NCBI RefSeq assembly: GCF_002001175.1
Contig: NZ_MUNT01000006.1
Location: 434,001 to 498,000 of the forward strand
Source of the DNA: Rhodanobacter sp. C03
Lineage (GTDB): Bacteria; Pseudomonadota; Gammaproteobacteria; Xanthomonadales; Rhodanobacteraceae
Length of the DNA: 64,000 nt
Direction of reading: 5' to 3'
A program made the translations under genes and the position numbers. Of the stretch, positions 51,451-53,445 are shown one piece after another. The notes beneath the pieces are model-generated. The model was given only the letters and a program-made list of their open reading frames with translations. It ran no database searches and was not told the origin of the DNA. Numbering within the stretch: position 1 is the first letter of the stretch; each line of letters opens with the position of its first letter.

Positions 51451-53133
51451 TCATGCCAATGCGTGTTCGTGCACTCCTTGAACAGCACGCCCCGACGGAT
51501 CGGCAGCATTCGCAAATGCCGGATCCCACGCCAGCGCCGCCGGTGACGAACAGGCGATCGACTTGCCGCCCGGCACCGTGGCCGCGCAGGCTTCGCTGGG
51601 AAAGTGCTGTTCGAAGATGCGCCGGTAGAAATAGGCCTCCTTGGTGGCCGGCGTGTTGAACGGATAGCGTGCCGCGGCCGCGGCGAATTCGCGGTCGCTG
51701 ATCGCCTGCTCGGCGTGCGCCTTCAGGCCGTCGATCCAGCCGTAACCGACGCCGTCGCTGAACTGCTCCTTCTGCCGCCACAGGATCGAGTCAGGTAGTG
51801 CACCCTCGAACGCCTCGCGCAGCACGGCCTTCTCGATGCGTCCCTGCCCCGCCATCTTGTGCTTCGCGTCCAAGCCCATCGCCACGTCGATGAAGGCCAG
51901 GTCGAGGAACGGCACGCGGGCCTCCACGCCCCAGGCCATCATCGCCTTGTTCGCACGCAGGCAGTCGTAGCTGTGCAACGCATCGAGCTTGCGCACAGTC
52001 TCCTCATGGAAAGCCTCGGCCGATGGCGCCTTGTGAAAGTACAGGTAGCCACCGAACAGCTCATCGGAACCTTCGCCGGACAGCACCATCTTCACGCCCA
52101 TCGCCTTGATCCGCCGCGCCAGCAGATACATCGGCGTGGCGGCGCGAATCGTGGTGATGTCATAGGTCTCGATATGCCTGATCACCTCCGGCAGCGCATC
52201 CAGGCCTTCCCAGAACGTGTAGACGAAGCCGTGATGCACGGTGCCCAGCGCGTCGGCGGCGATCTGGGCGGCTGCCAGATCCGGCGAACCATCCAGCCCG
52301 ATCGCGAACGAGTGCAGGCGCGGCCACCACGCTTCGGTCCGATCGCCTTCTTCGATGCGGTGACGGGCGAACTGCGCAGCGCATGCGGCCACCAGCGATG
52401 AATCCAGTCCACCGGAAAGCAGCACGCCGTAAGGGACGTCCGTCATCAACTGACGATGCACGGCTTGCTCGAACGCCTGACGCAAGGCCGGCGCCGCGAC
52501 GTCGTGACCCTGCGTGTGCGCGTAGTCGCGCCACGGCTTGTGATAGTAGCGGCGCAATTCGCCATCGGCGCTGTCGTACACATGGCCGGGCGGAAACGGG
52601 GACACGTCCATGCATACGCCAACCAGCGCCTTCATTTCCGAGGCCACGCACAAACGGCCCTGCGCATCGTGTCCCCAGTACAACGGGCAGACCCCGATCG
52701 GATCGCGGGCGATCACGTAGCGCTGAGCTGCACCATCCCACAAGGCAAACGCGAAGATACCGTTGAGCTTGTTGACGAGATCAACCAGGGAACCCTCCGC
52801 GCCCAATTCGCGATACAGCGCGTTGATCACCTCGCAGTCCGAACCGGTGGTGAAGTCATAGATGCTGGCTGCACGAAGCTCCTGGTGGTTGTAGATCTCA
52901 CCGTTCACCGCCAGCGCCAGTGCACCGTCGCGCGAACGCAGCGGCTGCGCGCCGCTGGCCGGGTCGACGATGGCCAGCCGCTCGTGCACCAGAATCACCC
53001 CGGCATCGACAAATACGCCGCTCCAGTCCGGCCCGCGATGGCGCTGGCGCTGCGACAGTTCCAGCGCCTGCCGGCGCAACGCGGCCAGATCGTCGCCCGG
53101 CTGCAGGTCGAACATTCCGAAGATCGCACACAT
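51451..53133 (-). CDS. asnB: Asparagine synthetase B (glutamine-hydrolysing)
   Basis: The 560-residue enzyme starts MCAIFGMFDL: after Met removal Cys1 is the glutaminase nucleophile of the class II amidotransferase domain (about 1-200; NGEIYNHQELR). The C-terminal synthetase domain has the ATP pyrophosphatase loop LLSGGLDSSLVAA and VLSGEGSDELFGGYLYFHKAP. It makes Asn from Asp, glutamine and ATP. The ATG at 53133 is certain because the Cys must follow it. An Asn-rich leader peptide and a terminator hairpin lie upstream (53228-53353), so attenuation by asparagine supply is expected. Confidence 0.95.
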   Translation of the reverse strand: MCAIFGMFDLQPGDDLAALRRQALELSQRQRHRGPDWSGVFVDAGVILVHERLAIVDPASGAQPLRSRDGALALAVNGEIYNHQELRAASIYDFTTGSDCEVINALYRELGAEGSLVDLVNKLNGIFAFALWDGAAQRYVIARDPIGVCPLYWGHDAQGRLCVASEMKALVGVCMDVSPFPPGHVYDSADGELRRYYHKPWRDYAHTQGHDVAAPALRQAFEQAVHRQLMTDVPYGVLLSGGLDSSLVAACAAQFARHRIEEGDRTEAWWPRLHSFAIGLDGSPDLAAAQIAADALGTVHHGFVYTFWEGLDALPEVIRHIETYDITTIRAATPMYLLARRIKAMGVKMVLSGEGSDELFGGYLYFHKAPSAEAFHEETVRKLDALHSYDCLRANKAMMAWGVEARVPFLDLAFIDVAMGLDAKHKMAGQGRIEKAVLREAFEGALPDSILWRQKEQFSDGVGYGWIDGLKAHAEQAISDREFAAAAARYPFNTPATKEAYFYRRIFEQHFPSEACAATVPGGKSIACSSPAALAWDPAFANAADPSGRAVQGVHEHALA

Positions 53134-53227
53134 GGTTGTTGTCCCGTTGGATTGGATATTTCTTTGGCTGAAAGGTCTGGCCATGAATGGCCGCACTTTG
53201 TTTTTCTCGAACGGATTTGCGTGAAAC

Positions 53228-53259
53228 AAAAAGCAGAAGGCCCGCACTGGGCGGGCCTT
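53228..53259 (-). terminator. Attenuator terminator upstream of asnB
   Basis: On the minus strand AAGGCCCGC and GCGGGCCTT (53251-53259 and 53237-53245) form a 9-bp stem with a 5-base loop, followed by CTGC and a run of five T (53228-53232). It lies between the leader peptide stop (53288) and the asnB start (53133), so transcripts ending here would not include asnB. Confidence 0.8.
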
Positions 53260-53287
53260 CTTCGCGTATGTTTCTGGAAACCTGAAG

Positions 53288-53353
53288 CTACGCGAGAACC
53301 CGCCAATAGTTGGCGTTATTGTTCGCGCGATTATTGTTGTTGGCGGCCAGCAC
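53288..53353 (-). CDS. Asparagine-rich leader peptide of asnB attenuator
   Basis: A 21-codon frame starting at GTG 53353, with CGGAG 4 bases upstream, contains NNNNRANNNAN: eight Asn codons in eleven, followed by Tyr, Trp and a TAG stop. The frame is open further upstream to ATGs at 53401 and 53410, which lack ribosome sites. Leader peptides rich in the end-product amino acid, placed before a terminator and the biosynthetic gene, are the mark of transcription attenuation (his, thr, leu, trp, phe operons). Here the amino acid is Asn and the gene is asnB. Confidence 0.8.
   Translation of the reverse strand: MLAANNNNRANNNANYWRVLA
53297..53315 (-). promoter_or_regulatory. Alternative hairpin and antiterminator segment of asnB leader
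   Basis: CGCCAA and TTGGCG (53301-53306 and 53310-53315) form a 6-bp hairpin around the last Asn codons. The adjoining GGCGGGTT (minus strand, 53297-53304) is complementary, with six GC and two GU pairs, to GGCCCGCC (53250-53257) in the 5' arm of the terminator. A ribosome stalled on the Asn codons would cover the first arm, free GGCGGGTT and block the terminator. Confidence 0.65.
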
Positions 53354-53416
53354 AAGGCTCCGCGGGAAAGGCGCGGTGGCGGTGTGGAGGCTGGAAATCA
53401 TCGAATGCATGGGTCG

Positions 53417-53445
53417 ACTAGAACAGATTGGACGGCCATGCGCAA
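53417..53445 (-). promoter_or_regulatory. Possible asnB promoter
   Basis: On the minus strand TTGCGC (53440-53445), 17 bases and TCTAGT (53417-53422) match the sigma70 consensus at four of six positions each. Transcription would start near 53410, about 55 bases before the leader GTG. The match is modest. Confidence 0.4.

Follow-up and report, generated by a model that had tools for sequence, protein, structure and literature searches.

The window analysed here, a 64 kb stretch of the Rhodanobacter sp. C03 genome, carries a short frame rich in asparagine codons between an upstream frame (53838-53467) and asnB, all on the minus strand, and raises the question of whether this frame controls the gene that follows it. 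The frame reads VLAANNNNRANNNANYWRVLA up to its stop codon at 53288, and AANNNNRANNNANYWRVLA is the C-terminal end of the full 40-codon frame. A density of at least five asparagine codons in 11 is reached nowhere else in the six frames of the 64 kb, where it occurs in eight overlapping segments, all of them at the leader. Judging from the sequence, it is very likely that the asnB leader is a ribosome-mediated transcription attenuator that senses charged Asn-tRNA.

The original prediction had described a frame with eight asparagine codons in eleven that ends at 53288, a hairpin (53315-53310 with 53306-53301), an antiterminator segment GGCGGGTT (53304-53297) with its complement GGCCCGCC (53257-53250), a terminator, and asnB starting at 53133. 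The frame, the hairpin, both complementary segments and the asnB start were all found in the minus-strand sequence as described (Table 1). The T-run of the terminator is also present, and the stem, which had been put at 9 bp, is actually 11 bp long (53261-53251 with 53245-53235). The gene product is asparagine synthase B by its match to NF006949 (852.7 bits, cut-off 499). A palindrome, GGCCATGAATGGCC, lies at 53179-53192 between the terminator and asnB. It has one exact match in the window, where 0.37 matches with at most one mismatch are expected, and GGCCATGGATGGCC or GGCCATCCATGGCC is found at a similar place in six loci (L043, L044, L055, L060, L262 and L276).

Table 1. Parts of the asnB leader region and their positions in the window.
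Feature	Position	Strand	Basis or remark
-35 element TTGCGC, putative leader promoter	53440..53445	-	17-nt spacer to -10; inferred
-10 element TCTAGT, putative, 6 nt 5' of ATG	53417..53422	-	inferred
Leader peptide frame, 40 codons, MHSMISSLHTATAPFPRSLVLAANNNNRANNNANYWRVLA and stop	53288..53410 (ATG 53410, TAG 53288)	-	predicted mRNA 5' end is A of ATG
Control codons NNNNRANNNAN	53309..53341	-	Asn codon counts
Outer 1:2 helix, 5' arm, overlapping the Arg-Ala spacer between both Asn runs	53323..53328	-	fold and covariation
Outer 1:2 helix, 3' arm, just 5' of and into the stop codon	53290..53295	-	fold and covariation
Inner 1:2 hairpin, 5' arm	53310..53315	-	fold
Inner 1:2 hairpin, 3' arm, overlapping strand 2	53301..53306	-	fold
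Strand 2, antiterminator core GGCGGGTT	53297..53304	-	GGGCC:GGCCC pairing
Strand 2 extension CGCGTA, including part of the stop codon	53289..53294	-	fold and permutation test
Strand 3 extension TACGCG, partner of the strand 2 extension	53263..53268	-	permutation test
Strand 3, terminator 5' arm, GAAGGCCCGCC	53250..53260	-	pairing in alignment A1
Strand 4, terminator 3' arm	53235..53245	-	pairing in alignment A1
Terminator T-run	53228..53232	-	sequence
asnB, asparagine synthase B (glutamine-hydrolysing), regulated gene	51451..53133 (ATG 53133)	-	NF006949

We found the same arrangement in relatives of the strain. AsnB matches were obtained in 136 of the 147 genomes of its own family, some of them merely partial at 36-50% identity. 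An asparagine-rich frame followed by a terminator stands 5' of asnB in all 97 close orthologs of the own family (at least 79% identity), in all 50 of a second family, assumed to be the Xanthomonadaceae (at least 75% identity), and at all three loci of a third family. Conservation of the asparagine codons in related genomes, proposed as a check of the original prediction, is thus borne out in 150 of 150 close orthologs from three families, with 3-8 asparagine codons per 10-12 codons. Alignment A1 holds 95 of the 97 own-family leaders and leaves out L062, which has another terminator spacing, and L091, in which the frame scan chose another frame; the L091 leader, with NNN, and the L062 terminator were read by eye. 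At one locus (L117, genome G028) the leader is normal, and the asnB match is split between two adjacent open frames, which may stem from a frameshift or from a faulty assembly. Among the best 80 of 468 titled records, the closest asnB copies come from Rhodanobacter and further ones from Dyella, Frateuria, Fulvimonas and Dokdonella. The leader is present at all 77 of these loci that have at least 250 nt upstream, from genomes partly shared with the 97-locus set; the remaining three of the 80 are too short upstream to be counted.

The first two families contain two kinds of asnB, orthologs of 75-97% identity, which have the leader, and copies that have diverged to 61-66% and lack it (L101-L116, L341 and L348), which suggests that gene and leader have been replaced together. 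The asparagine frame and terminator are missing before all 18 of these diverged copies. At the 16 own-family loci of this kind the best stretches hold only 1-3 asparagine codons in 12, and in the second family, where 50 of 52 loci have the leader, the two without it are diverged copies of 64-65%. Six further loci from other families (one each in f10, f6, f150 and f56, two in f8) gave one weaker candidate and five without any. The candidate, L347 in f8, has a diverged asnB (66%), and the last 230 nt before it hold a possible small leader with four asparagine codons in 10, MFAIYNTINTTNNRLLRSAGSF, and a terminator; it may reflect an older origin or be an independent case.

Within a class sample of 143 genomes, asnB at 60% identity or more was found, besides the own genome, only in G147 and G513 (the latter outside the order, 62%), and G513 has three asparagine codons in 10 before asnB and no terminator. 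A covariance model, R1, was used to seek the element elsewhere. At an E-value of 0.001 it matched 243 of 299 genomes of the order and 122 of 274 of the class, tallies that are not leader counts, because many of the weak matches listed are confined to the terminator part (roughly position 76 onwards). R1 also misses second-family leaders, as in G147 and G158, which have leaders and no full-length match among the matches listed; that R1 gave no other strong match in the class (best 39.3 bits) is for this reason no evidence of confinement to the order. In the 320 nt around each of 17 weak R1 places, the best asparagine density was five in 10 codons, on the opposite strand (L234), and on the matched strand four in 10 (L230 and L249). 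None of these three lies before any asnB found, and the L230 stretch is inside the end of a longer frame. The original prediction had spoken of an attenuator in this group; the element is indeed there, and its range is wider, reaching across three families of the order or more.

The start of the leader had been placed at a GTG codon behind CGGAG and four further bases. That sequence is present in the window, but only three of the 150 leaders (L001, which is the window itself, L002 and L004) keep both the GTG and the preceding GGAG, and we rejected this start. An in-frame start codon within the leader, preceded by a Shine-Dalgarno core of any kind, was found in five of 93 own-family leaders, in none of 50 from the second family and in none of three from the third. 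Based on conservation, translation very probably starts at ATG 53410, which is conserved in frame behind a conserved promoter-like sequence. A -35 TTG lies within -39 to -31 of the chosen leader ATG at 92/93 own-family, 50/50 second-family and 3/3 third-family loci. Together with a -10-like hexamer (at least three of six bases matching, a final T, and an end 5-8 nt 5' of the ATG), it is found at 144 of 146 loci vs 36 of the 2192 ATGs of the window, a result favoured by the fact that the leader ATG was picked by promoter score among usually one to three candidates. The base at -1 of the chosen ATG is C at 139 of the 146 loci, this base having also been used in picking the ATG in the second and third families. 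These counts cover 146 of 149 scored leaders from the three families, L082, L083 and L088 having no chosen ATG. A consensus promoter scan of the window did not call the leader promoter.

A Shine-Dalgarno core stands 5' of the leader ATG in one of 93 own-family loci and in 12 of 53 others, where we read it as the AGGA of the -10-like element; for comparison, the same core stands 5' of asnB in 75 of 93 and 53 of 53 loci, respectively. In their promoter spacing, which would place +1 at the start codon, and in the general lack of a Shine-Dalgarno sequence of their own, the leaders match leaderless messages, and the leader mRNA is probably leaderless, with its 5' end on or close to the A of ATG 53410. 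Sinorhizobium meliloti trpL offers a precedent for a leaderless attenuator RNA, as far as the parts of that report covered here go (PMC7298713). In addition to attenuation, and not as an alternative to it, the peptide or the released RNA, which would be about 180 nt long and begin with AUG, might act in trans, as in S. meliloti: the build is that of the leaderless trpL RNA ending at the attenuator, as given in the same parts of the report (PMC7298713). However, the N-terminal half of the leader peptide is poorly conserved, and we regard such an added role as improbable.

The asparagine codons themselves carry a mark of selection. Over the final 24 codons, 149 leaders from the three families contain 460 AAC, 446 AAT and 8 AAA or AAG codons, that is 906 AAY vs 8 AAR, and the choice of leader frames by asparagine density favours AAY but not an even mix of AAC and AAT. 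Translated asparagine predicts such a mix and a fixed RNA element would not, so this even alternation between C and T in third position indicates selection for asparagine, and the leader frame appears, from this pattern, to be translated. In the own family the asparagine codons cluster at positions -17 to -9, and also at -7, from the stop. The number per 10 codons runs from three to eight and is only three in five of 96 own-family and three of 50 second-family leaders, plus L091. A cluster of codons for asparagine, which is the product of the AsnB reaction, is present in every one of the 150 leaders.

A conserved frame with similar end residues within each family could also belong to an arrest peptide, in which the nascent leader peptide would stall the ribosome on free asparagine or another small molecule and not through lack of Asn-tRNA. 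However, outside the asparagine codons the peptides are strongly divergent from family to family, and the asparagine residues vary in number and spacing (3 to 8 per 10-12 codons). Even the alike C-terminal residues fall, in our reading, on the RNA pairing segment, read in different frames across genera. An arrest peptide is therefore a very improbable explanation of the frame.

The attenuator reading also concerns the RNA beyond the control codons. An intrinsic terminator lies between the leader frame and asnB, and in alignment A1 97.9% of its cells are paired and five of its 11 pairs have changed on both sides. In these and the following pairing, permutation and shuffle tests, which take the sequences as independent and ignore relatedness, the percentage paired, the number of double-change cells and the covariation score of the terminator were each reached by none of 500 shuffles; two weak measures, the number of double-change pairs and the number of pair types, were reached by 9/500 and 424/500. 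None of 5000 permutations of the terminator arms reached the cognate pairing. The antiterminator is formed by strand 2 and strand 3, in the own family by GGCGGGCC with the terminator segment GGCCCGCC, and in the second family by GATGCGGGT with ACCCGCATC or by CGCGGGC with GCCCGCG. It excludes the terminator, and its 5' strand lies where a ribosome at the stop codon would cover it. Over 95 leaders, 99.6% of the cells of the core GGGCC:GGCCC are paired; this core is nearly invariant (49/500 shuffles as good), and taken alone it is not clearly better than permuted arms in the own family (414/5000).

Across 131 distinct pairs of strands 2 and 3, cognate arms reach -17.4 kcal/mol vs -15.97 for permuted arms (sd 0.17), which none of 10000 permutations matches. 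Within the own family this difference is gone (cognate -17.85 vs permuted -17.91 kcal/mol). For the extension (CGCGTA/TACGCG), the cognate pairing beats all 5000 permutations over 82 distinct pairs. Antiterminator and terminator have changed together between the families and not within the own family, and second-family strand 2 still pairs well with first-family strand 3 (-16.2). That the hairpin is just the end of the upstream gene, which does lie on the same strand, or a constitutive attenuator, with the asparagine frame a coincidence or a small protein with another role, is hardly credible, since a conserved promoter-like sequence separates the upstream frame from the leader, the asparagine frame accompanies the close asnB orthologs and is not found with the diverged copies, and the hairpin has a conserved antiterminator partner.

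In the protector region of the proposed attenuator (1:2), the cognate outer helix beats all 5000 permutations. The bases at the Arg-Ala or Asn-Ala break in the asparagine run pair in this helix with those before the stop codon, which offers a possible reason for the break. The inner hairpin alone is not distinct from non-cognate arms (196/5000 permutations). Chimeras of the whole 1:2 region are weaker than the cognate in the own family (0/5000, 80 distinct) and not in the second (565/5000, 41 distinct). Pairs in this region were not counted from A1 because, as we read it, the Rhodanobacter-type 1:2 arms are shifted there by three columns. Of the covariation that the original prediction called for in three helices, the terminator, the 2:3 extension and the outer 1:2 helix gave support, the inner hairpin alone did not, and the 1:2 region did so in the own family only. 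The equilibrium model described below gave no protection of strand 2 by the 1:2 region, the antiterminator staying at 0.90 or above with the whole region free. To judge by its sequence, the asnB leader has the features of a leader-peptide attenuator that were tested, the protector hairpin aside.

In the proposed scheme, transcription would start at the A of ATG 53410 or 1-2 bases from it, leaving no 5' UTR, and the ribosome would begin at the very 5' end of the leader mRNA. When Asn-tRNA is sufficient, the ribosome would pass the asparagine codons to the stop and cover strand 2 (53304-53289), strands 3 and 4 would form the terminator, and asnB would stay untranscribed. When Asn-tRNA is low, the ribosome would wait on the asparagine codons and strand 2 would remain free to pair with strand 3 before strand 4 has been transcribed, and this 2:3 pairing would let RNA polymerase go on into the gene. 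The bases around the Arg-Ala spacer could, in the own family, form the outer helix with those before the stop codon.

We followed this scheme with an equilibrium model in which the ribosome was set codon by codon along 95 own-family leaders. When the modelled RNA stops short of strand 4, the antiterminator forms with a probability of 0.90-1.0 as long as the A-site is on one of codons -20 to -8; the value falls to 0.34 at codon -7 and to at most 0.08 from -5 onwards. Most asparagine codons lie ahead of this drop, and in the leader of the window the last of the eight (-7) lies past it. With strand 4 included, equilibrium favours the terminator wherever the ribosome stands (mean probability at least 0.88 in the own family and at least 0.68 in the second), so antitermination must be kinetic, a matter of timing. 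As modelled, equilibrium pairing does not explain what stops antitermination in the absence of a moving ribosome.

The supply of asparagine in these bacteria gives such a switch a possible physiological meaning. In 11 genomes of the order, asnS was above the cut-off in all 11, and gatB and asnA were each found in none of the 11. With AsnRS present and the other two absent, Asn-tRNA should come only from free asparagine through AsnRS. A protein search of the own genome gave one asnB, and asnB is likely to be its only asparagine synthetase. Two further short PF00733 matches, of 30.5 and 23.9 bits (cut-off 21), were recorded in the same genome (G000), at C17:236475-236648 and C14:393697-393885. 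In the tested genomes asnB would then be the main or only apparent source of asparagine for Asn-tRNA, and the switch would gauge asparagine supply directly.

Databases of known elements were also compared with the leader. No Rfam family reached its gathering threshold in a scan at this place: Thr_leader scored 25.3 bits (55 needed), Trp_leader 21.6 bits (41 needed), and Phe_leader was likewise below its threshold. The sub-threshold Thr_leader and Trp_leader matches fit the general build of an attenuator. A Thr_leader search of the whole own genome led to nothing but an inverted repeat that lies between other genes and looks like a terminator; it was rejected. Neither at the gathering threshold nor at E-values up to 5 did Rfam match a T-box at the leader. 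Three leader peptides (that of the window and two from the second family) had no Pfam match and no NCBIfam match above the cut-off, and a single NCBIfam match of 11.8 of the required 45 bits is taken as chance.

Leader-peptide attenuators of amino-acid genes are known in proteobacteria for trp, his, thr, ilv, leu and phe, and Vitreschak et al. are said to have surveyed the proteobacterial amino-acid attenuators in 2004. No asparagine leader-peptide attenuator was found among the literature matches listed, and an earlier description may exist, for instance in that 2004 survey. In the parts covered of a 2010 survey of premature terminators, a term search did not find asparagine (PMC2965389), and in those covered of a paper on Xanthomonas sRNAs, asnB2 is named in a table only (PMC3771888).

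Overall, we see even chances that this is the first asparagine leader-peptide attenuator, an old one shared by at least three families that gives dedicated control of the only asparagine synthetase, and in which the leaderless start is a conserved working part that lets a ribosome enter once the 5' end of the RNA has emerged and times the race between ribosome and polymerase from nucleotide 1. Asparagine would then join the amino acids sensed by leader-peptide attenuation, and a regulator of asnB would be known from several families within one order. The conserved leaderless start would be a natural model for leaderless initiation combined with attenuation, and the families supply ready compensated sequence variants for tests of RNA structure.

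T-box leaders of asparagine genes in Firmicutes sense Asn-tRNA and act by termination. The asnB leader would resemble them in sensing Asn-tRNA and in controlling an asparagine gene by termination; the T-box, which was compared by means of the Rfam scan, binds the tRNA directly, whereas the asnB leader would use a ribosome and a leader frame. With the proteobacterial attenuators it shares the order of a short control-codon frame, a putative protector hairpin, an antiterminator, a terminator and a biosynthetic gene, and it differs from those of trp, his, thr, ilv, leu and phe in having asparagine as the control amino acid and asnB as the gene. The Corynebacterium ilvBNC attenuator likewise has a frame rich in the regulated amino acids, and the parts of that report covered here cite leader peptide formation without a ribosome binding site, which by the cited title is not needed; it concerns branched-chain amino acids and belongs to the Actinobacteria (PMC10272879). 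S. meliloti trpL, according to the parts covered of its report, responds to tryptophan in another bacterial class and has a reported 5' end, whereas that of the asnB leader is placed by conservation; its attenuated RNA starts directly at the leader peptide's ATG, as that of asnB is predicted to do (PMC7298713).
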